Shown here: positions 2,084 to 33,513 of the stretch, piece after piece
How positions within the stretch are numbered: position 1 is the stretch's first letter
Layout: each line of letters starts with the position of its first letter
Notes under the pieces: generated by a model
What the model was told of the DNA's origin: nothing
What the model saw: only the letters and a program-made list of their open reading frames with translations
Database searches by the model: none
Translations under genes and position numbers: made by a program
Origin: Nitrospira sp.
GTDB taxonomy: Bacteria > Nitrospirota > Nitrospiria > Nitrospirales > Nitrospiraceae
Reading direction: 5' to 3'
DNA length: 64,000 nt
Assembly (NCBI GenBank): GCA_030692565.1
Contig: JAUYAO010000054.1
Location: forward strand, 124,001 to 188,000

Positions 2084-3226
2084 ATGTTGAAGCGGTATTT
2101 GTTGGCTCCGGGCCCTACGCCTGTACCCCCAGAAGTGTTGTTGGCGATGGCCCGTCCGATGATTCATCATCGGGCTCCTGAGTTCGATCCGATCTTCGCG
2201 GAAGTTCGTGAGGGGCTCAAGTGGCTGTTTCAGACTCGAAATGACGTCCTGATGTTGGCTTCCTCCGGTACAGGGGGGATGGAAGGGTCGATCTCCAATT
2301 TTCTGTCTCCCGGCGACAAGGCGCTGTGTATCAATGGCGGGAAGTTTGGCGAGCGGTGGGGAAAGATCTGCAAAGCATTTGGAGTGCAGGTCACGGAAAT
2401 CAAGGTCGAGTGGGGCGATGCGGTCGATCCGAAAGTGGTCGCCGATGCGTTGAACGCCGATCCCTCGATTAAGGCGGTCTATGTCCAGGCCAGTGAGACG
2501 TCGACCGGAGTGTCGCACGACGTGAAGGCGCTGGGCGAGATTGTCAAAGGGTATGAGAATACGATTTTGGTCGTCGATGCGATTACCGCGTTGGGCGTAT
2601 TCGACATCAAGACGGATGCATGGGGATTGGATGTCGTCATTACCGGTTCGCAGAAGGCCCTTATGCTTCCGCCGGGCATGGCATTCGTGAGCGTCAGCGA
2701 CAAGGCCTGGGCATTTGCGGAAAAAGCCAAGAATGCGTCGTTCTATTTCAACTTCAAGAAAGAACGTGAGAATCAGGCCAAGAATCAGACGTTGTTTACG
2801 CCGACGGTGTCCTTGATTATCGGTCTTCAGGAAGTGTTCAGAATCATGAAGGGCGAGGGGCTCGATAAGATGTTTGCGCGGCAGGGGCAGTTGGCCCACG
2901 CCATGCGTGAAGGGATGAAGGCTGCAGGATTGGCGCTGTTCCCCAAGAATTCACCGAGTGATGCGTTGACGACGGTCTGTGCGCCGGATGGAGTGGATGG
3001 GCAGGCCATCTATAAGAATCTCCGTGTTCAATATGGCATTACCGCAGCCGGCGGGCAGGACCAGTTGAAGGGCAAAGTGTTTCGTCTCTCTCATATGGGC
3101 TATGCCGATCGATTTGACGTGATTACGGCCGTGGCTGCGACAGAGATGGTCCTGAAGGGGCTTGGCCATTCTGTGAAGTTGGGCAGCGGAGTGGGTAAAG
3201 CGCAAGAAATTTTGATGGCGAAATAG
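2084..3226 (+). CDS. Class V aminotransferase (alanine/serine-glyoxylate aminotransferase family)
   Basis: 380 residues from ATG 2084, chosen because AAGGAGG lies at a good distance upstream (about 2069-2075); an in-frame codon at 2048 lacks this. The N-terminal LLAPGPTPVPPEVL and the MIHHRAPEF segment are typical of the AGT/SGAT/PucG group of PLP enzymes. The PLP lysine is in ITGSQKALMLPPG. It probably transfers an amino group to glyoxylate or a related keto acid. It lies 10 bp upstream of serA in the same direction, suggesting a shared transcript for serine/glycine metabolism, possibly as the aminotransferase partner of SerA. The exact donor is not determinable. Confidence 0.9.
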   Translation: MLKRYLLAPGPTPVPPEVLLAMARPMIHHRAPEFDPIFAEVREGLKWLFQTRNDVLMLASSGTGGMEGSISNFLSPGDKALCINGGKFGERWGKICKAFGVQVTEIKVEWGDAVDPKVVADALNADPSIKAVYVQASETSTGVSHDVKALGEIVKGYENTILVVDAITALGVFDIKTDAWGLDVVITGSQKALMLPPGMAFVSVSDKAWAFAEKAKNASFYFNFKKERENQAKNQTLFTPTVSLIIGLQEVFRIMKGEGLDKMFARQGQLAHAMREGMKAAGLALFPKNSPSDALTTVCAPDGVDGQAIYKNLRVQYGITAAGGQDQLKGKVFRLSHMGYADRFDVITAVAATEMVLKGLGHSVKLGSGVGKAQEILMAK

Positions 3227-3236
3227 GCAGGTCTTC

Positions 3237-4820
3237 ATGAAAATCCTGATCAGCGACAGTTTATCGAAGCAGGGCGTCGAACTCCTTGAAAAGGCTGGTT
3301 TCACCGTGGTGGTGAAATCGAAAATGCCGAAAGAGGAATTGTTTAAAGAGATTCAGGACGCGGATGGGTTGATCGTGCGCTCCGGTACCAAGGTCACCGA
3401 TGAGCTGATCGCGGCAGCGCCGAAGTTGAAGATCGTAGGGCGTGCGGGCTCCGGCCTCGACAACGTCGATACGCCGGCGGCCACGAAGCGCGGGATTGTC
3501 GTCATGAATACACCAGGCGGCAATACCGTCACCACGGCCGAACATACGATGTCTATGATCTGCGCGATGAGCCGACGGATTCCACAAGCCACCGCGTCCG
3601 TGAAGGCTGGCAAGTGGGAGAAGGACAAGTTCATGGGGGTCGAGCTCTACAATAAGGTGCTCGGCATCGTTGGCATCGGACAAATCGGCGGCCACTTGAC
3701 GAAAATGGCGCAAGGAATCGGTATGCGAGTGATCGCATACGATCCCTATTTGGCTGCGGATCGAGCGGAGAAAATGGGCGTGACGATGATGGCGTTGCCT
3801 GATTTGTTCAAGAGCGCCGATATTATCTCTGTCCATACGCCGCTCACGCCTGAAACGAAGGGCATCATCAACGCGCAGGCCATTGCCACCATGAAACCCG
3901 GTGTGATGATCGTAAACTGCGCCCGCGGTGGCATCATCAACGAAGTCGACCTCGTCGAGGCATTGAAGAGCAAGAAGGTGGCTGCTGCGGCGTTTGACGT
4001 GTTTGAAGAGGAGCCGGTCAAGGCCGACAATCCTCTCTTAGCCTTAGATAATTTTATCTGCACGCCGCATATCGGCGCTCAGACGACGGAAGCCCAGGAA
4101 AACGTCGCGGTCGGGATCGCCGAGCAGGTGGTCGACTACTTTACGAAGGGTGTGGCCAGGGGGGCGGTGAACATTCCGTCCATTGCACCGGAGCTGTTGC
4201 CGCGGTTGCAGCCCTATCTCACGCTCGTGGAAAAAATGGGATCCCTGCTGTCTCAATTGTGTCAAGGTGGAATTGAACGGGTTACAGTGGAATATAGCGG
4301 GGAAGTCGCGACACTTTCGATCGCGCCGCTGACGATCGGTGTGTTGAAAGGCTTGCTGACGCCGATCATGGAAAACCCGGTGAACTACGTCAATGCTCCG
4401 GTCGTGGCAAAAGAGCGGGGCATCGAAGTGAAAGAGATCAAGAGTACGGACGCCGGCGACTTTACCAGCCTGATCCGCGTCAAGGTTGAAGCGGGAAAGG
4501 CCACGCACCAGGTGGCAGGCACGCTTTATCATAAGAAGGACGCCCGGGTCGTCGAGATCGACAGCTTTAAGGTTGAAGTGGTTCCTGAGGGACACATGCT
4601 GTTCATTCACAATGTCGATCGGCCCGGGGTGATCGGGATGGTGGGACATGTGCTCGGCGAGAACAATATCAATATCGTCCGCATGCAGTGCGCCCTCGAA
4701 AAGCGCGGCGGAAACGCCTTGTTGATCATTGCTTCGGATACCGTGTTCCCGGCGAGCGCGCTGGACAAGATCAAATCCAGCTCCAATATTCTGTCGGTCA
4801 AAGTAGCAAATCTCTCCTAA
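3237..4820 (+). CDS. serA: D-3-phosphoglycerate dehydrogenase
   Basis: 527 residues, the long form of SerA. The Rossmann motif GIVGIGQIGGHL is near residue 145. The catalytic Arg is in NCARGGIINE, the Glu in the FEEEPVKADNP region, and the His in TPHIGAQTTEA. An intervening ASB-type domain (about 320-450) and a C-terminal ACT domain (HNVDRPGVIGMVG) follow, the latter usually giving serine feedback control. It oxidises 3-phosphoglycerate to 3-phosphohydroxypyruvate in the cytoplasm, the first step of serine synthesis. It follows the aminotransferase with a 10-bp gap. Confidence 0.97.
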   Translation: MKILISDSLSKQGVELLEKAGFTVVVKSKMPKEELFKEIQDADGLIVRSGTKVTDELIAAAPKLKIVGRAGSGLDNVDTPAATKRGIVVMNTPGGNTVTTAEHTMSMICAMSRRIPQATASVKAGKWEKDKFMGVELYNKVLGIVGIGQIGGHLTKMAQGIGMRVIAYDPYLAADRAEKMGVTMMALPDLFKSADIISVHTPLTPETKGIINAQAIATMKPGVMIVNCARGGIINEVDLVEALKSKKVAAAAFDVFEEEPVKADNPLLALDNFICTPHIGAQTTEAQENVAVGIAEQVVDYFTKGVARGAVNIPSIAPELLPRLQPYLTLVEKMGSLLSQLCQGGIERVTVEYSGEVATLSIAPLTIGVLKGLLTPIMENPVNYVNAPVVAKERGIEVKEIKSTDAGDFTSLIRVKVEAGKATHQVAGTLYHKKDARVVEIDSFKVEVVPEGHMLFIHNVDRPGVIGMVGHVLGENNINIVRMQCALEKRGGNALLIIASDTVFPASALDKIKSSSNILSVKVANLS

Positions 4821-4845
4821 CGGTCGTAGACGCGCATCGGTTGCT

Positions 4846-5949
4846 ATGCCTCCTGCCTCTTCGAAGACGCGCGTTGATCTTGGTCAGACCCATCCCTTGC
4901 GTGACCGGTCGCTGGTCCCGTCAGGGATGGCGACCATTCTGCCTGCCGCGGCAAAACAAGTCCGAGCGCTCGAGTCCAAACTACTGGGACGTCTGACGCG
5001 TCGGGGTTACGACGAAATCATTCTGCCGACATTTGAATATCTCGATGTGCTCACGCCCGGATTGGAGCCTGAGCTGATTGAGAAATGCTACAAGTTTGCC
5101 GATCGCACCACCGGCCGTATTCTGCTCTTGCGACCGGACGCGACCGCTCAGATCGCACGAACCGTGGCAATGGGCATGATGGGCACTCAGTTGCCGTTAC
5201 GCGTGTCCTATCGCACCTCTGTGTTTCGCTATGAGCCGGAGCATGCCGGGCGCGACCGGGAAATTTTTCAAGTCGGCGCAGAGTATATCGGGGCGGATGA
5301 TGCTGCTGCCGACAGTGAGATGCTCATCCTGATGATCGAGTGCTTGAAGCAGGTCGGCCTCCGCTCCTTCAAGATCTCACTCGGGCATGTCGGGTTTTTT
5401 AAGGGATTGCTGGTCAGGGCAGGGCTATCTCCCAGCGGACAGAAACGAGCGGAGCAGGCTGCGGCTCGCAAAGATCTTCCTCGTCTGCAAGAAATTCTTA
5501 CCGGTGAACAGGTGGCAGCGCGGTATGCCGGCTCCATTTTAGAGGCACCCGAGCTGTGCGGGCAGGCCGAGGTGTTGGACCGAGGTCGAGTGCTTGCGAC
5601 AGGCGACAAGTCTGCCACTCAGGCGCTTATTCGGTTGGCGACGGTCTATCAGCTCTTGTGTCAAGCGGGGCATCAGGACGTCCTCATTCTTGATTTGGGT
5701 GAGTTTCGCGGGTTTGATTACTATGATGGTGTGGTGTTTGACGTCTTTGCTGAAGGAGTCGGGGTTGAATTGGGAGGTGGGGGACGATACGACCATCTCA
5801 TTGGCCGGTTCGGACGGAATATTCCATCCACGGGTTTTGCGTTAAACGTTGATCGTCTGTTTCGTGGGTTGCAAGCGCAGTCATCCGTAAGCGTAGCAGG
5901 GGCGAATGCGTCCAAACAGACCCGAAAGGGATCGAAGAGGACGTCATGA
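4846..5949 (+). CDS. hisZ: ATP phosphoribosyltransferase regulatory subunit
   Basis: 367 residues, a HisRS-like catalytic fold without the anticodon-binding domain. Motif 2-like residues are seen in VSYRTSVFRYEPEHAGRDRE, and a motif 3-like glycine-rich strand in GGGGRYDHLIGRFG. HisZ pairs with the short-form HisG to give an active, histidine-regulated first enzyme of histidine synthesis; no hisG is in the window. Its stop overlaps the dnaB start (ATGA at 5946-5949), implying translational coupling. A HisRS role is excluded by the missing C-terminal domain. The Lys/Arg-rich tail is not part of the family core. Confidence 0.9.
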   Translation: MPPASSKTRVDLGQTHPLRDRSLVPSGMATILPAAAKQVRALESKLLGRLTRRGYDEIILPTFEYLDVLTPGLEPELIEKCYKFADRTTGRILLLRPDATAQIARTVAMGMMGTQLPLRVSYRTSVFRYEPEHAGRDREIFQVGAEYIGADDAAADSEMLILMIECLKQVGLRSFKISLGHVGFFKGLLVRAGLSPSGQKRAEQAAARKDLPRLQEILTGEQVAARYAGSILEAPELCGQAEVLDRGRVLATGDKSATQALIRLATVYQLLCQAGHQDVLILDLGEFRGFDYYDGVVFDVFAEGVGVELGGGGRYDHLIGRFGRNIPSTGFALNVDRLFRGLQAQSSVSVAGANASKQTRKGSKRTS

Positions 5950-7298
5950 AGCCATTCGCGACCGTCGATCTTTCCCAGCCGAAATTGCCGCCGCAGAATC
6001 TTGAGGCGGAGCAGTCCGTATTGGGCGCTATCCTGCTGGACAACCAGGCCATGCCGAAAGCGATGGAACTGCTCGTCGAAGAGAATTTCTACCGCACGGC
6101 CCATCGTAAAGTGTATCGGGCGATGCTCGACTTATCCGATGTCGGGGAAGTCATCGACCAGATCACGCTGACTGAACGGTTGAAAGCGAAGGGGGAGCTG
6201 GAGTCGATCGGAGGCGCGGCCTTTCTTGCTGAGTTGGTCCAGTCGGTATCCAGTTCCGCGAATATCCGGTATCACTGCAAGATTGTGCGCGACAAAGCGG
6301 TGGCACGGGAGCTCATTCACACTTCGACGGAAGTGCTGACAAAAGGCTATGAAGGGACGACTTCCATTGACGATCTACTCGACTTTGCCGAGCGCTCCGT
6401 ATTCAGTATCGCCCAAGGCAAACTGGAACGATCGTTTACTCCGATCAACGACATCATCAAAGAGAGTCTTGATCTCGTCGACAAGCTGTCGAAGCGGAAA
6501 GAGCATGTTACGGGAGTTCCGACGGGATACTACGATCTGGACGATCTTACCGCGGGGCTTCAGCCGTCCGATCTCGTCATCGTGGCAGCTCGTCCCAGTA
6601 TGGGCAAGACCAGTCTGGCCTTGGGGTTTGCGACGCATGCCGCAATCCACGCCAAGGCAGTGGTTGGTATTTTCAGTCTCGAAATGTCCAAGCCGCAAAT
6701 AGTGTTGCGTATGTTGAGCTCGGAAGCGCGGGTCGATTCGCACGGACTCCGGACGGGTAAGCTGCAAAAAGAAGATTGGTGGCGGCTGGCCGAAGCCGCA
6801 GGCAGGCTGGAGCAAGCGCCGATCTATATTGATGATACGGGTGGGATTACCGTCCAGCAGATGCGCGGGAAGGCCCGCCGTCTCAAAGCGGAGAAGGGGC
6901 TGGATCTTCTGATCGTGGACTATCTCCAGCTCATGCAGGGGCGGAGTGATTCCGAGTCGCGGCAGCAGGAGATCTCCGACATCTCCCGGTCGCTGAAGGC
7001 GTTGGCGAAAGAGCTGAATGTGCCGGTGGTGGCGCTCTCGCAGCTCAGCCGCGCCGTGGAGGCGAGGAAGCCGCCGATCCCGATGCTGGCCGACTTGCGT
7101 GAGTCCGGCGCGATCGAGCAGGACGCCGACGTCGTGATGTTTATCTATCGCGAAGAAGTCTATGACCAGAATTCCGAGCGGAAGGGCATTGCCGACATCA
7201 TTGTCAGCAAGCATCGAAACGGTCCGATCGGAAAGCGGGATCTCTTTTTCCATGATCGGTTTGCGAAGTTCGAAAGCCTCGACAATCGCGAATCGTGA
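5946..7298 (+). CDS. dnaB: Replicative DNA helicase
   Basis: 450 residues, standard DnaB length. The N-terminal primase-interacting domain begins with PPQNLEAEQSVLGAIL. The RecA-like C-terminal domain has Walker A ARPSMGKTSLA near residue 215 and Walker B LLIVDYLQLM, followed by a conserved VVALSQLSRAVE and DLRESGAIEQDADVV. It unwinds DNA ahead of the replication fork as a hexamer. The start overlaps the hisZ stop by four bases. No intein is present. Confidence 0.97.
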   Translation: MKPFATVDLSQPKLPPQNLEAEQSVLGAILLDNQAMPKAMELLVEENFYRTAHRKVYRAMLDLSDVGEVIDQITLTERLKAKGELESIGGAAFLAELVQSVSSSANIRYHCKIVRDKAVARELIHTSTEVLTKGYEGTTSIDDLLDFAERSVFSIAQGKLERSFTPINDIIKESLDLVDKLSKRKEHVTGVPTGYYDLDDLTAGLQPSDLVIVAARPSMGKTSLALGFATHAAIHAKAVVGIFSLEMSKPQIVLRMLSSEARVDSHGLRTGKLQKEDWWRLAEAAGRLEQAPIYIDDTGGITVQQMRGKARRLKAEKGLDLLIVDYLQLMQGRSDSESRQQEISDISRSLKALAKELNVPVVALSQLSRAVEARKPPIPMLADLRESGAIEQDADVVMFIYREEVYDQNSERKGIADIIVSKHRNGPIGKRDLFFHDRFAKFESLDNRES

Positions 7299-7436
7299 AG
7301 TCGTTTGACGGGTCTTTTCTCCTGTCGGTATAATTCCTCACAACTGACGATGCACTCCGAGTCCTTTTCCCCCAAGGCTACTGTGAATACACGACTCTGC
7401 TCTTCGGTCGCCTCCTCATTGTTGTCCCCTGGTCAT

Positions 7437-23646: not shown

Positions 23647-23760
23647 GGTCCAGTGCTTTCGTGTCGAGTGTTCTGGAGGGGAAGATAATTCTGCAGCTTA
23701 CGGGGTCAATCCCCTCTTTGCAAGAGAGGACCCGTCTGAGGTAGTGGGCTACTTTCAGTT

Positions 23761-24590
23761 TCACGCGACTAATTCCTTCAGTTCCCAAATCCTGCCCGTT
23801 ACGCCAGCGGCCATCGCTGGTGTCATGCGAAGCGATCCGTGAATCAGGCAGAAATTATACGTCCAGAAGTACAAGGCCACAGCCGCTTTCAAGTTGACCA
23901 ACTTCTTCGAGAAGGCCAAGGACAACCGATGAAATCGCGCTATCTTCATTCTGAGCGTCAAGTTCTGTCGTTCAATATAGGACGTACAAACCTTACTGTA
24001 ATCAGGGATGCCGAGCACTTCAGTAATCTGACTTCCTGACACGCGAGGCGGCGCATATCGACCAGCCCCAGGATTCTCGGCAGCATAGAATTTGGTGATC
24101 GTGGCATAGGTGGCCCGATTGCCAAAATACCGCGCAATGGCTGGACTGTACGGCCCCCAAGCATCAGTACTCACTTGCGTTGAGCCGTCAATGCGTCGGC
24201 TTAGATCCTCGATGAAGTGGTGCGTGTTCACTGAATCACGCTTACCGACGTGGAAAGCCGGAATCATCTTGCTGACGGGATCAAGCGCAATGTAGGTGTA
24301 ATGTAGGTGTATTGGTCGCCCAATTCAGGATTCGCCTTCCGCTCATCTGCTTTCATGACACCTTCTTTTTTCTGTACGAAGGTCCAGATTTCGTCACACT
24401 CGACGGCCTCAAAATGCAGCCCTCGCATAGTTTTATCCATCATCCGTTGACAGCGAGAACCAACTTCAACCAAGAGCTTCATGATAGTTTTCTTGTGTAC
24501 GCCAGTCATGCGGGATACTGAGCGGATAGAGCATCCCTCAGTGAGGGCAGCAATAACGGCGAGCTTCTTTTCTGGTTTAAGCGTATTCAC
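23761..24590 (-). pseudogene. IS1-family transposase, frameshifted by an 11-bp tandem duplication
   Basis: The first part (24,590 GTG start, AAGGAGG upstream) has an HTH (GCSIRSVSRMTGVHKKTIMKLL) and the first catalytic Asp in VECDEIWTFV. The second part (from 24,267 down) has DAWGPYSPAI, SYIERQNLTLRM and LRMTPAMAAGV of the ISMhu11-like branch of IS1. The break coincides with AATGTAGGTGT occurring twice in tandem at 24,289-24,310. Deleting one 11-bp unit joins GDQYTYI to ALDPVSKMIPAF in one frame. This differs from the programmed slippage of classical IS1, so the gene is probably inactive. Confidence 0.88.
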
Positions 24591-24600
24591 GGGACCTCCT

Positions 24601-24628
24601 TTGACAGAAGTCCGTGAAAGCGTATAAT
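24601..24628 (+). promoter_or_regulatory. Perfect sigma-70 consensus promoter inside the element
   Basis: TTGACA at 24,601-24,606 and TATAAT at 24,623-24,628 with a 16-bp spacer, pointing away from the transposase and toward the passenger genes. It runs antisense to the tRNA-like gene and is about 460 bp before the first passenger ORF, with three hairpins in between. Confidence 0.6.
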
Positions 24629-24682
24629 GTCGATTACCTTCTAGGGTGTAATCGGCTCAGCCTTCACGGGTCTGCCGGTTAC

Positions 24683-24712
24683 GGCTACTCAGTGTTAGCG
24701 CACTGAGTAGCC
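24683..24712. terminator. 12-bp hairpin beside the tRNA-like gene
   Basis: GGCTACTCAGTG (24,683-24,694) pairs perfectly with 24,701-24,712 around a 6-nt loop. On the minus strand it lies 12 bp past the CCA end of the tRNA-like gene and could act as its terminator or processing hairpin. No T tract follows it. Confidence 0.45.
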
Positions 24713-24724
24713 ATGAAATTAAAT

Positions 24725-24802
24725 TGGTGGCGGGGAGTGGGCTTGAACCACCGACCTGGCGATTAGCAATCGCACGCTCTCTCCAGGCTGAGCTACCCCG
24801 CC
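24725..24802 (-). tRNA. tRNA-like gene, anticodon GCU (Ser) on a class I body
   Basis: 75-nt body plus encoded CCA. Acceptor GGCGGGG pairs with CCCCGCC, discriminator A. The D arm is GCTC/GAGC with A14 and G18G19. The anticodon loop is TTGCTAA (anticodon GCT). The variable region is only 5 nt (AGGTC). The T arm is GGTGG with loop TTCAAGC. U8-A14, G15-C48, G18-U55 and G19-C56 partners are all present. One flaw is the T-C mismatch at 27-43. Bacterial serine tRNAs have a long variable arm that SerRS needs, so this is not an ordinary tRNA-Ser. It is carried inside the mobile element. Confidence 0.8.
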
Positions 24803-24818
24803 ATAATTGGTGCCCACC

Positions 24819-24906
24819 AAGGGCCGTCTCTCTGCTTTCCACGGCGTGAGGAGACGGCCCTTGTCGTTATAGCCCCTCGCGTCGGTGAGCATGATCGCGG
24901 GGGCTA
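24819..24906. other. Two further strong hairpins between tRNA-like gene and cargo ORF
   Basis: AAGGGCCGTCTC (24,819-24,830) is the exact complement of 24,851-24,862. Next, TAGCCCC.CGCG (24,870-24,881) pairs with 24,896-24,906 with one bulged T. Neither has a U tract. They could be part of a structured leader of the passenger transcript, of the tRNA precursor on the other strand, or of a small RNA. Confidence 0.45.
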
Positions 24907-25038
24907 AGGCTCTTCTTCGCATTTCTATACCCTCCAAGCAGTTCGTCCTGAAGAGCGCAATGGCATGCTATCTCATGCAAGTCAAGATAAAATTGATATA
25001 TGTAAAAAGATAAATTTGATAAATGTGCTCGTTAAGGC

Positions 25039-25067
25039 TTGATCCTTTCTCTGAAACAGTCTATAGT
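25039..25067 (+). promoter_or_regulatory. Candidate promoter of the first passenger gene
   Basis: TTGATC (25,039-25,044), 17 bp, TATAGT (25,062-25,067). The start point would fall at about 25,074, right at the AGGAGG ribosome site, which is unusually close, so this may be coincidental. Confidence 0.3.
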
Positions 25068-25088
25068 CTCCGCAGGAGGAGTAAGAAC

Positions 25089-26048
25089 ATGGCTGAACCC
25101 AAAGAAAAGAATGGGGCGATTGTTGACGCGAAGGAATCAGTGCAGCAGACGGCGAGGACGCGTAGCCCTGCTTATCCTGGCATCGGGCTAGAAACTGCAA
25201 TTAGGCGAGCACGGGAACTTTATGCCCAGGAGAAGTTGAATCCTGTTCCGTTAACCATTGCGGTGAAGCGGTGGGGGTTCAAAGAGAAAAGTAGCGGTGG
25301 CCTTGTAGCTATTGCGGCATTGAAAAGCTTCGGGCTTTTGAAAGATTCTGGATCTGGAAAAGATCGTAAGCTTCAGCTCACTGATGAAGCCCGTAGGATT
25401 TTGCTAGATACACGCCAAGAATCTCCTGAACGGGACCAGCTTATTAAAGAAGCGGCTCTAAGGCCAAAGATACACAACACCTTATGGAAGAGGTGGGGCA
25501 CTGATCTTCCCTCGGACGAGAACGTGCAACATGCTCTTATATTCGAGTGGTCTTTCAATGAGAACATTGTCAGGGACTTCCTGAGGGAATATAAGGACAC
25601 AATTCTCTTTTCAAAGCTGACCGATTCTGATACTATATCGACAAATAGTGGAGATAAAGAAGAGATCGTAGTCGGTGATTATGTTCAATGGGAATCAAGC
25701 GGAGGAATTCAGTTTGAAGCAAAGCGTGTTACTGGATTTTCAGGTGATGGTGCCTTTGCCTTTGTTGAAGGCACTAATACAGGGTTTCCACTTGATGAAC
25801 TTTCAAAGGTTCAAGCACTTAATCCAGGATCTGAGAAGGGTAAATTTGTTCAACCCATTAAATCTCTCCCTCCAAAGGTCGGTATGAATAGCGATACGTT
25901 TACGTTAGATGAAGGCCAGGTCATTCTACAGTGGCCTGCTAAGATGAGCCATGAAAGCTATGAGGACTTCAAGTCGTGGCTTGATTTGGTTGCCCGTAAA
26001 GCGAAACGTGCAGTAGATAAGCCGAGTGCAGACACAAATCAATCATGA
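25089..26048 (+). CDS. Unknown protein with N-terminal winged-helix-like domain (transposon cargo)
   Basis: 319 residues from ATG 25,089, with AGGAGG upstream. I do not recognise the family. Residues about 26-115 (YPGIGLETAIRRARELYAQE, WGFKEKSSGGLVAIAALKSFGLL, LQLTDEARRIL) look like a winged-helix or DUF5343-like fold. A middle acidic part and a C-terminal region (VVGDYVQWESSGGIQFEAKRVTGF, with an SH3-like beta pattern) follow, ending in a helical MSHESYEDFKSWLDLVARKAKR. No signal peptide or membrane segment. AT-rich codon use differs from the host. It lies 161 bp before the NYN gene, same strand. Confidence 0.75.
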   Translation: MAEPKEKNGAIVDAKESVQQTARTRSPAYPGIGLETAIRRARELYAQEKLNPVPLTIAVKRWGFKEKSSGGLVAIAALKSFGLLKDSGSGKDRKLQLTDEARRILLDTRQESPERDQLIKEAALRPKIHNTLWKRWGTDLPSDENVQHALIFEWSFNENIVRDFLREYKDTILFSKLTDSDTISTNSGDKEEIVVGDYVQWESSGGIQFEAKRVTGFSGDGAFAFVEGTNTGFPLDELSKVQALNPGSEKGKFVQPIKSLPPKVGMNSDTFTLDEGQVILQWPAKMSHESYEDFKSWLDLVARKAKRAVDKPSADTNQS

Positions 26049-26094
26049 TATAAGTTTATGAAATAATGATCATGATGGTCATTTATTAAAAAAC

Positions 26095-26123
26095 TTGACG
26101 TGACGATAATCACTAGCGATAAT
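26095..26123 (+). promoter_or_regulatory. Promoter of the NYN gene
   Basis: TTGACG (26,095-26,100), exactly 17 bp, GATAAT (26,118-26,123): five of six matches to each consensus hexamer. It predicts a transcript start near 26,130 and an ~80-nt leader. Confidence 0.6.
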
Positions 26124-26135
26124 TGCATTATTATA

Positions 26136-26200
26136 GGTCCTGCCGCGGTAGGACCGGTCGATACCACCGCGAGGGGCTGCGTGCCCCTCGCATTTTTTTT
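26136..26200 (+). promoter_or_regulatory. Attenuator-like leader: two hairpins ending in an intrinsic terminator
   Basis: Hairpin 1: GGTCCT (26,136-26,141) with AGGACC (26,150-26,155). Terminator: GCGAGGGGC (26,169-26,177) with 26,183-26,191, then A and eight T. The NYN start codon is at 26,210, only 10 nt on, and the promoter is upstream, so the terminator is inside the NYN leader. CGCGGT (26,144-26,149) can instead pair with ACCGCG (26,166-26,171), which would take three bases of the terminator arm. That is the arrangement expected of an attenuator. It could also end the upstream gene. Confidence 0.6.
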
Positions 26201-26209
26201 GGGTAAATC

Positions 26210-26944
26210 ATGCGCTCCTGTATATTTGTAGACGGAGAGAATCTTCGTCATTCGCTCATTGATCTATTTGCCGGTGAATTTGACCCGCAAGATTATCTCC
26301 CTAAGACAGCTCGATGGCATGAATTCTTCGACTTCTTAGCTGCGAATTGCTATTCATCAGAAAAGCTTCGAGCCTATTGGTATGTTGTAGGCAAGGTAGA
26401 TTTTTGGCCATGGAATCTACCGCACAGTATTAACGATCATCAGAAGCTCGTAAATATTCTTCGTAAGCACGATCCATTTGCCAAGGCACTTAATGCAGCC
26501 GCAAACGAACGAACTTGTGCTGAGAATATTCTGCACGATCTAGAGGATGAACAGCGTAAAATCGAGAAGCGCTTTCATGGATGGCTCACACTCCAAAATG
26601 GAATAGTTGGTCAGCATGATGAAGTCGAATTTCGTCGGGCAGGGACCATTCACTATAATCTCTGCACTAGACGGTTTGGATCAGAGAAGGCTGTAGATGT
26701 GAAGCTCTCTATCGATATGCTTCACCTGAAGGACATTTATGATGTAGCCGTAATTGTTTCTGGTGATGGGGATTATGTTCCGGCAGTCCAGGTTATTAAA
26801 GATTGCGGGAAGAAAGTTGTTAATGTTTCCTTTGAGACCAGAAGTGGGGATTTATTGCCTGGTGGGGCACGGACACTTAATCAGATCACTGATAAAGTCT
26901 TGACCGTTAAATATAATCAAATAAAGCCGCTCTTGCTTCCATAG
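26210..26944 (+). CDS. NYN-domain protein (PIN-like nuclease, LabA/DUF88 type), transposon cargo
   Basis: 244 residues. The PIN-like acidic residues are visible: FVDGENLRHSL at the very N-terminus, KAVDVKLSIDMLH near 160, and VIVSGDGDYVPAVQ near 180, followed by GKKVVNVSFE. NYN proteins are metal-dependent ribonucleases; some act in tRNA/rRNA processing or in anti-phage or toxin systems. The target here is unknown. Only a weak GGG precedes the start. It ends 25 bp from the right inverted repeat of the element, so it belongs to the mobile unit. AT-rich like its partner at 25,089. Confidence 0.88.
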   Translation: MRSCIFVDGENLRHSLIDLFAGEFDPQDYLPKTARWHEFFDFLAANCYSSEKLRAYWYVVGKVDFWPWNLPHSINDHQKLVNILRKHDPFAKALNAAANERTCAENILHDLEDEQRKIEKRFHGWLTLQNGIVGQHDEVEFRRAGTIHYNLCTRRFGSEKAVDVKLSIDMLHLKDIYDVAVIVSGDGDYVPAVQVIKDCGKKVVNVSFETRSGDLLPGGARTLNQITDKVLTVKYNQIKPLLLP

Positions 26945-27137
26945 TTTTCCTCTATTTCTATTTTCATAATAGCCCACTACCCCCGTCTGATGGGGCTCTG
27001 GCCGGCAACAATCGTGATCAGATCCGGGCTCCTTTGGGGGGATCGAATTCAGGACAGTGTTACTAGAGGAGGACTCAGGGAAGAACTCAGGGCCGTGTCG
27101 CCGTGCAGGACGAGTCAACGTTGCATGAATCGAGACG

Positions 27138-31395: not shown

Positions 31396-32186
31396 AACCA
31401 GACCTGCCTTGTAGTGCCAGTGGGTGATGTAAGTGCCTCTGCCACGCAGGTCCATATCATCATAATTCCTGAAGAGTTACCACACATCAAAAGAGGGGGG
31501 CTCCACAGAATGCTCACGATTCATTCGTGACAAGTGTTCAATTTTGTATAGGCTTGGTCAGCTGGTCTGAAGGCGGAGGAATCAGAATAATTGATAGGTG
31601 AGGCCAAGATAGGGGAGGCTAAAATTTAGCCCAGAATTGGGCGATCGAGTCCCTGCGTTAGAGATGTGCCTGACGCGGTAGCCGGTCGTCAGCGCCCATG
31701 CGGGAGTCATCTGGTAGGCACAGCCAACTCCACCCCATCCCAGAAAATTGAATTGTCCTGGTTGTTCTGGGACTCGCCCTCCCAAGTCCGTCCACGCCGG
31801 GCCCTCCGCCTCCCTCGATGAAGGGGCGCACCCGTCCAAACGCCGTGGAGGTATAGGCCATTTTCGGAGTCAGTCCGATCCCATAGGCTGTAATCGGACT
31901 ATGAGTATGGACGGCGACGAGTTCTGCGCCGAGCGCCAGTTGGCCTTGGTACCAGCCTGAGCCGATCGGTTCCGTAAGGGTCATCATCCACGACGGGATG
32001 AAGGCTTCCCCGAAGAGTTTTGAGGATTGGCTGGTCCCAACACGCAGGGGAAAGAATGGCCCGGTCGTGAGTCCTATGGTTTGGGTGCCGATGGGAGAGG
32101 GGGATCCGGAAATTCGGACAGTGTGCTAAGTGGTAGCCTGGCTTCACCGAAGCCACCAGGTGGTGGCGAACCAGAGGAGCGAGGCA

Positions 32187-32486
32187 ATGAAGCGAACACG
32201 ACGGAATCACGGAGCGACGTTTAAGGCCCAAGTGGCGTTGGCCGCGGTCAAAGGCGACAAGACGCTGGCCGAATTGGCCGAGCAGTTTCAGGTCCATCCC
32301 ACGCAGATCACGGAATGGAAGCAGCAATTACTGGCGCGGGCCGCGGATGTGTTTGGCGGGGCCACACCGACGGCGGACACGCCGGATCTCAAGACCCTCC
32401 ACGCCAAGATTGGCCAACTGGCCCTGGAAAATGATTTTTTAGCCGGGGCGCTCACCAAGGCGGGCTTGCGGAGCGCAAAGCCATGA
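32187..32486 (+). CDS. IS3-family OrfA (transposase DNA-binding part)
   Basis: 99 residues from ATG 32,187. The N-terminal HTH is RNHGATFKAQVALAAVKGDK and LAEQFQVHPTQITEWKQQLL. A leucine-zipper-like segment follows (LKTLHAKIGQLALENDFLAGALTKAG). In the family OrfA is fused to OrfB by ribosomal slippage. The stop overlaps the orfB start (32,483). It is intact by itself. Confidence 0.88.
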   Translation: MKRTRRNHGATFKAQVALAAVKGDKTLAELAEQFQVHPTQITEWKQQLLARAADVFGGATPTADTPDLKTLHAKIGQLALENDFLAGALTKAGLRSAKP

Positions 32487-33313
32487 TCGATCGGACCCAT
32501 TCACTGCCGGTGCAGCGGCAATGCCAGCTGCTGAAACTGGCCCGATCCACGGCGTACTACTCCCCGACGCCGGTATCGGCAGCGGAGCTGGCCCTGGTAC
32601 GTCGGATCGACGAACTCCATCTGCACCATCCGTTTGCCGGCGCTCGCATGTTGCGCGATCTCTTACGGCAAGAGGGGCAGGCCATTGGGCGGCGGCATGT
32701 GGCGACACTGATGCGCCGCATGGGGATTGAGGCCCTGTATCGCAAGCCGCGCCTCAGCCAGCGGCATCCGGCCCACACCATCTATCCGTATCTCCTCCGC
32801 AATCTCACGATCCGTCGTCCCAATCACGTCTGGGCGGCGGATATCACCTACATTCCGATGGCGTGAGGCTTTGTGTACTTGTTTGCGGTCCTCGACTGGG
32901 CCAGTCGCCGGGTGTTGGCCTGGCGGCTGTCCAACACGCTGACGACCGATTTCTGTCTCGATGCGGTGCAGGACGCCGTGAGCCGCTATGGCCCGCCAGA
33001 AATCTTCAATACCGATCAAGGGTGCCAGTTCACGAGCCAGGAATTCACCGGGCTGCTCACCCACCACGGCATCCAGATCAGCATGGACGGGAAAGGGTGC
33101 TGGCGAGACAACGTGTTTGTCGAACGGCTGTGGAAAAGCATTAAATACGAGGAGGTCTATTTGCACGCGTACGAGACCATCGAGGCTGCCCACCAGGGCG
33201 TGGCGCGCTATCTGACGTTCTACAATCAGACCAGGCCACATCAGGCGCTTGACGGCCAGACGCCTGACCAGGTGTATTATGACCATCTGACGACACGGCA
33301 GACCGCCGCGTAA
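32483..33313 (+). pseudogene. IS3-family OrfB transposase with an in-frame TGA
   Basis: The frame reads MIDRTHSLPVQRQCQLLKLA through the first catalytic Asp (WAADITYIPMA), then TGA at 32,864-32,866, then continues in the same frame GFVYLFAVLDWASRRVL, NTDQGCQFTS (second Asp) and the Glu in CWRDNVFVERLWKSIK. Relatives read IPMARGF here, so a CGA-to-TGA change is the simplest explanation. The DDE triad is otherwise complete. Probably inactive. Confidence 0.88.
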
Positions 33314-33513
33314 TCAGCACTACGCCAGGCGCCACTTAAGGAATGCGCGAAACTGTCCAACCAACCGGAGCCACCTCTGGGGGTTGATATTGGCCCATCA
33401 GATGCGGCTGCTGAGCAGGGAAGAAGGTGCGCTGTCAGGAACAGTAGTAGGACAAGGCTAAGAATGCGAGTCAACTGAGAACGGCAGGCCATGAGTAATA
33501 AGTGGTGGAGGGC

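Follow-up and report, generated by a model that had tools for sequence, protein, structure and literature searches.

A transposon-borne tRNA with an arginine-type body and a serine anticodon suggests that some IS1-family transposons carry tRNAs misreading the genetic code

Here, we present evidence from a 64,000-nucleotide stretch of a Nitrospira sp. genome (GenBank assembly GCA_030692565.1, contig JAUYAO010000054.1, positions 124,001 to 188,000; hereafter the window) that a tRNA gene with the anticodon GCU is cargo of a discrete IS1-family transposon. tRNA genes recur at the same place upstream of IS1-family transposases elsewhere, and in nearly all of 13 such cases the body of the tRNA disagrees with its anticodon. 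These observations suggest that some transposons carry tRNAs that would misread the genetic code. For the window tRNA, we consider it fairly probable that a functional-looking product would be charged with arginine and would act as a missense suppressor at the serine codons AGC and AGU (AGY).

A tRNA gene as cargo of a complete IS1-family transposon

ARAGORN calls positions 24725-24802 on the reverse strand (Table 1) as tRNA-Ser(gct), and with the Rfam model RF00005 this tRNA reaches 59.7 bits, above the gathering score of 29 and within the 50.8-76.9 bits spanned by the tRNAs of the host. The low-scoring or pseudogene call that a first-pass annotation of the window had named as evidence against the gene was thus not returned by ARAGORN or Rfam. 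The 5' part reads GGCGGGG-TA-GCTC-AGCCTGGAGA-GAGC-G-TGCGA-TTGCTAA-TCGCC and the 3' part AGGTC-GGTGG-TTCAAGC-CCACT-CCCCGCC-A-CCA, giving a class I tRNA with a 7/5 acceptor branch in which 20/21 pairs form (acceptor 7/7, D 4/4, anticodon 4/5, T 5/5 with one G-U). The earlier description of a type I body with every stem present stands apart from the mismatched positions 27-43, and its 5-nt variable region, encoded CCA and GCU anticodon are borne out by ARAGORN and by reading of the sequence. The variable loop (AGGTC) is not the long arm of a bacterial tRNA-Ser, while the anticodon is one that serves serine codons; nor is it an arginine anticodon, as GCU pairs with AGC/AGU. A search for the class I GCU pattern gave a single hit in the window and none in 100 shuffles.

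The mobile element in which the tRNA had been placed can now be bounded at 23740-26981. Window positions 23740-26982 are missing from locus L160 (genome G030, flanks 96-97% identical) and, with the same break, from genome G026, and alignment with close relatives reveals the empty site also in L162 and others. The synteny break coincides exactly with a perfect 12-bp inverted repeat (GGTAGTGGGCTA...TAGCCCACTACC), the sequence CCCGTCTGA is duplicated around it and is roughly single-copy at the empty site, and the GC content of the element is 47% versus 60% in the left and 54% in the right flank. A DDE transposase, terminal inverted repeats (TIRs) at both ends, a target-site duplication (TSD) in the 8-9 bp range and an empty site place the element in the IS1 family. 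As the tRNA lies inside an element bounded by TIR, TSD and empty site, it is transposon cargo. A host tRNA with an adjacent insertion sequence is ruled out, since the gene is located between the TIRs and is absent at the empty site.

The tRNA set of the host genome (4.17 Mb) is complete and has its own ordinary long-arm tRNA-Ser(GCU). The comparison with host tRNA genes that the first-pass annotation had proposed gave a best identity of 59/78, and because the host has its own class II tRNA-Ser(GCU), the transposon gene is not needed for AGY. No copy of the window tRNA was present in the other genomes of the genus examined.

Recurrence and body/anticodon mismatch upstream of IS1-family transposases

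The class I GCU tRNA pattern was scanned over 85,000 genomes (45 loci) and 2.9 million viral contigs (9 loci), and all-against-all comparison of the neighbouring genes revealed IS1-family transposases beside three loci (L141, L142, L145) and IS1595-family transposases beside four (L120, L127, L132, L135). In the unbiased direction, with the IS1-family transposase as query in Nitrospirota and Acidobacteriota, we obtained 102 distinct transposase loci, a few of which came from the L142 and L132 genomes. At 13 of the 102, ARAGORN detected a co-oriented tRNA 92-216 bp upstream of the transposase, compared with 0.35 expected within the counted 400 bp on the basis of the rest of the same DNA (Poisson P about 1e-16). 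One of the 13, L234, is the same locus as L142, and P without it is still about 5e-15. Complete elements with TIRs and 8-9 bp TSDs enclose the tRNA in the window and in 12 other cases (L142, L211, L223-L225, L227, L228, L266, L270, L282, L283, L292; n=13). Passenger genes differ between tRNA-bearing elements (Bro-N, HATPase/DUF4325, HARE-HTH, Gp49/HTH), which argues that the tRNA is linked to the transposase rather than to the NYN-domain gene carried by the window element. The IS1595 family was rejected as an equal carrier: tRNAs are only occasional there (L120, L127, L132, L135, L330, L331, L336), without upstream enrichment in 30 acidobacterial loci.

Body types of the element tRNAs were assigned by inspection, not by isotype models, and on this basis the mismatches consist of GCU or ACU on arginine-type bodies and of anticodons for Ile, Tyr, Thr, Ala or Ser(UCU) on long-arm ones. 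Long-arm examples carry UAU (L263, Ser-type, G73), GUA (L282, G73) and AGA (L211, Leu-type), and GGU, CGC and UGC are found on long-arm U73 bodies (L224, L225, L266). At a different site, an acidobacterial IS1-family element (L270, 1448-3431) carries a Leu-type long-arm tRNA (2900-2989) with the ochre-reading anticodon UUA.

ArgRS recognizes A20, C35, U36 or G36, and A73 or G73, and leaves position 34 free. All four determinants are present in the window tRNA (A20, C35, U36, A73). In the host, which has a single ArgRS-type locus (PF00750), A20 occurs in 5/5 tRNA-Arg and in 0/41 other tRNAs. Among the class I GCU/ACU element tRNAs examined, 14/15 have A20, the remaining one (L292) having an altered loop. 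With position 34 free, GCU and ACU are predicted to be the only misreading anticodons that keep arginine identity, and these are exactly the anticodons found on arginine-type element tRNAs; those found via the transposase all read AGY (GCU in L227 and L228, ACU in L223 and L291-L293). On viral contigs, A20 is likewise present in 9/9 GCU and 13/14 ACU cases (22/23) of class I AGY tRNAs whose D-arm is readable; three viral tRNAs (L349, L350, L352) share an identical acceptor stem with a host tRNA-Arg, and two (L357, L359) adjoin an IS1-family transposase.

The fold is conserved across elements, which we take as a sign of selection. In the 15 class I GCU/ACU tRNAs, 301/315 stem pairs are standard (95.6%), most positions in the acceptor, anticodon and T stems show several pair types, and two copies in genome G401 differ by a compensatory change from G2-C71 to C2-G71 (L228 versus L227). 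Most elements have a hairpin directly upstream of the tRNA (z down to -4.8), and many have an apparent separate transposase promoter downstream of it (TTGACA..palindrome..CATAAT). The window tRNA sits between two strong hairpins, of which that at 24818-24863 is near-identical in L224/L177 and similar in L225/L197; the L224 tRNA is of another kind.

Readings of the mismatched tRNA

An arginine-charged reader of AGC/AGU is the best reading of the window tRNA, because all four ArgRS determinants are present and A20 is specific to tRNA-Arg in this host. Charging with another amino acid and misreading of AGC/AGU, one of several options in the first-pass annotation, is accordingly the option best supported by the complete ArgRS set and the missing long arm, with both charging and decoding deduced from sequence features. 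Given the arginine-type body, host ArgRS should charge the tRNA with arginine, its GCU anticodon would pair with the serine codons AGC and AGU, and some arginine would be placed there in competition with host tRNA-Ser(GCU), leading to some Ser-to-Arg substitution. SerRS and LeuRS ignore the anticodon. The assignable bodies would then be those whose synthetases tolerate an anticodon change, namely ArgRS, SerRS and LeuRS. The transposon might benefit if a low level of mistranslation acted on the host or on invaders, or if the tRNA served to control genes of the element itself. More tentatively, and with slightly less than even confidence, we propose that IS1-family transposons of several phyla keep code-misreading tRNAs by selection and use mistranslation for their own benefit. 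Arginine would be inserted at serine AGY codons, long-arm bodies would act at Ile, Tyr, Thr, Ala, Ser or stop codons, and uses could be control of element genes, disturbing of invaders or diversifying the host proteome under stress.

Several observations weigh against the missense-suppressor reading. Steady Ser-to-Arg substitution should be costly. The window tRNA has one unformed pair (U27-C43), and the transposon copy may be inactive, as its transposase is frameshifted. L141, L142 and L145 came from the GCU pattern scan, so their anticodons do not count independently. Most IS1-family elements are without a tRNA, which is thus dispensable for transposition, and its absence from six IS1-family loci on plasmids indicates that it is not universal. 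The U73 class II tRNAs (L224, L225, L266) fall outside a simple Arg/Ser/Leu scheme, as does an ambiguous Gly-type tRNA with UUC or an 8-nt anticodon loop (L283, 4155-4230 in an IS1-family element at 3216-7408). The window transposase has no AGY codons at conserved arginines, and the AGY share of serine codons is alike in tRNA-bearing elements (70/200) and others (723/1859). AGY codons where the family has arginine are nominally more frequent in bearing elements (3/67 versus 3/646, Fisher P 0.013), but two of the three transposases are damaged or partial. No analogous codon signal was found for UAU, GUA, GGU, CGC, AGA or UGC elements, and the transposase of the ochre element L270 has no in-frame TAA. 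We see no support for a need of the tRNA in decoding the transposase of the window copy, and elsewhere a weak hint at most.

It is less likely, though a serious alternative, that the RNA acts outside translation, in line with the primer or regulatory RNA that the first-pass annotation also listed. Hairpin and tRNA-like fold would then belong to the transposase leader and serve as insulator, processing signal (RNase P/Z) or regulator, and the anticodon would be irrelevant. The constant site and strand 92-216 bp upstream of the transposase and the strong hairpin directly 5' of the tRNA in most elements would fit such a leader, and according to a review (PMC7609411), the transposon tRNAs of the tRNA(UAU) group reportedly failed to function in E. 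coli translation. A leader of this kind would be expected to carry random bodies and anticodons, in contrast to the kept identity sets and the restriction of arginine-type bodies to GCU and ACU, and the apparent own promoter of the transposase in many elements lies downstream of the tRNA. Hitch-hiking and decay of a captured host tRNA appears improbable. The 27-43 mismatch and the frameshift in the window copy, along with the damaged appearance of L136 and of one tRNA in L135, are what decay would produce; however, no host tRNA matches beyond 59/78, 95.6% of pairs are kept with covariation across elements, and captured genes should usually have matched body and anticodon, which almost none has.

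NYN/PIN nucleases often cut RNA, and a NYN gene is present in the same element. The first-pass annotation had considered the tRNA as decoy or target of this nuclease, which would amount to a toxin-antitoxin or defence logic. We regard this as very improbable for the window and discard it as a general explanation, because the other tRNA-bearing elements examined have tRNAs in the matching position 5' of the transposase together with Bro-N, HATPase-DUF4325 or Gp49/HTH passengers and no NYN. Least credible of all is a genuine serine tRNA charged by SerRS despite its short variable loop. The window tRNA shares the anticodon loop TTGCTAA with host tRNA-Ser(GCU), yet bacterial SerRS needs the long variable arm, a normal tRNA-Ser(GCU) already exists in the host, and A20/A73 belong to the arginine set.

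Further features and comparison with known systems

The 319-aa and NYN-domain genes form a divergent passenger pair. The former has no match in Pfam, PADLOC or PHROGs and is absent from 78 searched genomes of the genus. Viral contigs and phages yielded no relatives of the NYN protein or of a 341-aa protein, the latter having one weak plasmid match (27%). The forward-strand promoter at 24601-24628 runs antisense across tRNA and hairpins and might give an antisense RNA. A second insertion missing from relatives lies at 32095-33378 of the window, with an IS3-like transposase pair (32130-32486, 32483-33313).

Table 1 Features of the tRNA-bearing transposon in the window
Feature	Position	Strand	Basis
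Class I tRNA, anticodon GCU, A20/C35/U36/A73, CCA encoded	24725..24802	-	ARAGORN, Rfam, pair count
Complete IS1-family transposon, 3,242 bp	23740..26981		synteny break, TIR, TSD, GC
Terminal inverted repeat GGTAGTGGGCTA	23740..23751	+	inverted-repeat pair, 12/12
Terminal inverted repeat, other end, TAGCCCACTACC	26970..26981	-	inverted-repeat pair
Target-site duplication CCCGTCTGA, left copy, 9 bp	23731..23739		identical to 26982-26990
Target-site duplication CCCGTCTGA, right copy, 9 bp	26982..26990		identical to 23731-23739
IS1-family transposase, N-terminal part (HTH)	24264..24590	-	weak HTH_Tnp_ISL3 match; homology to L141 transposase
IS1-family transposase, C-terminal part (DDE_Tnp_IS1), out of frame with N-terminal part	23761..24267	-	PF03400 E=4.6e-6
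11-bp tandem duplication AATGTAGGTGT, site of transposase frame loss	24289..24310	-	read from sequence
Hairpin, 13-bp perfect stem, 15 nt upstream of tRNA	24818..24863	-	inverted-repeat search
Second hairpin, further upstream of tRNA, AGCCCCTCGCG / CGCGGGGGCT	24871..24905	-	read from sequence
Hairpin, 12-bp perfect stem, directly downstream of tRNA	24683..24712	-	inverted-repeat search, fold
Sigma-70-like promoter, TTGACA-16-TATAAT, 12/12	24601..24628	+	consensus match only
Passenger gene, 319 aa from ATG after ribosome-binding site; open reading frame opens at 25023	25089..26048	+	open reading frame
Passenger gene, NYN-domain nuclease-like protein, 244 aa	26210..26944	+	PF01936 E=2.6e-14; PADLOC HEC-09/NYN

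Several related loci showed features of their own. The 8-nt anticodon loop of L283 could make it a frameshift suppressor. The L223-L226 and L270 elements share a conserved small basic passenger of about 80-100 aa with a motif like KGGKARAxxLSAKxRxxIAKKAAKARW. At a planctomycete locus (L145, 1311-1513), class I tRNAs with GCU and ACU stand in tandem, separated by hairpins; an IS1-family transposase lies nearby on the opposite strand, and no element ends were found at this locus. Beside IS1595-family transposases, tRNAs occur at L330 (3100-3285), L331 (3002-3089), L336 (2995-3083), L334 (2005-2093) and L135 (3354-3560); several are long, with Ile, Pro, Ala or Asp anticodons, and L135 has an arginine-type GCU tRNA with a long D-loop insertion adjoining a Leu-type GUC tRNA. 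Viral class I ACU tRNAs with arginine-type D-loops comprise L344, L348-L354, L356, L357 and L359-L361, of which only L357 and L359 stand beside an IS1-family transposase. Four class I GCU tRNAs from unrelated genomes (L103, L115, L138, L101) resemble ordinary tRNA-Gly(GCC) apart from a single altered anticodon base (GCC to GCU), and are predicted to insert glycine at AGY codons or may be sequencing variants. Five class I GCU tRNA-like sequences (L092, L104, L122, L124, L125) from Bacteroidota, Firmicutes and one viral contig combine A20 with a broken acceptor stem, often also containing TTGAA on the 3' side, and are perhaps tRNA-like att sites or non-coding RNAs.

The element resembles known IS1-family insertion sequences with passengers in its DDE_Tnp_IS1 transposase, GGTAGTG-type ends, 8-9 bp duplications and passenger genes. 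Our literature search, which did not extend to ISfinder, found no paper on a tRNA gene as a regular IS1-family component. Classical missense suppressor tRNAs are laboratory mutants of host genes; like the window tRNA, they pair an altered anticodon with a synthetase that tolerates it, but the window tRNA is borne by a mobile element. tRNA genes on phages and plasmids are likewise mobile, and viral contigs also have arginine-type ACU/GCU tRNAs. Phage tRNAs are, however, usually seen as matching, codon-supplementing isoacceptors, unlike the mismatched window tRNA. Mismatched genes are labelled simply as tRNA-Ser, tRNA-Ile and the like, so such annotations call for caution, and a simple rule for finding more is to look for tRNA genes upstream of IS1-family transposases with a body/anticodon mismatch.

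The closest parallel is provided by allo-tRNAs (Mukai et al. 2017), described in a review (PMC7609411) as natural bacterial tRNAs whose anticodon is at odds with the body, with long arms, 8/4 or 9/3 acceptor branches and mainly serine identity; misreading of Ser, Ala or Leu codons with insertion of serine was demonstrated for some of them in E. coli. The window tRNA is similar in that its serine anticodon mismatches its arginine identity set, and the Ser-type tRNA with UAU upstream of an IS1-family transposase at L263 is similar as well. As a class I, 7/5, arginine-type tRNA with a 5-nt variable loop, the window tRNA falls outside the allo-tRNA definition; by analogy, we infer that it works by the same logic, and its sequence adds a putative class I, arginine-type branch to these tRNAs. 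The link of allo-tRNA-like genes to complete IS1-family transposons, via TIR, TSD and empty site, is shown here. Allo-tRNAs left the question why bacteria carry code-breaking tRNAs, and the fixed site within bounded IS1-family transposons, combined with a consistent logic of synthetases that can be fooled, turns it into a testable question on transposon biology and natural codon ambiguity.
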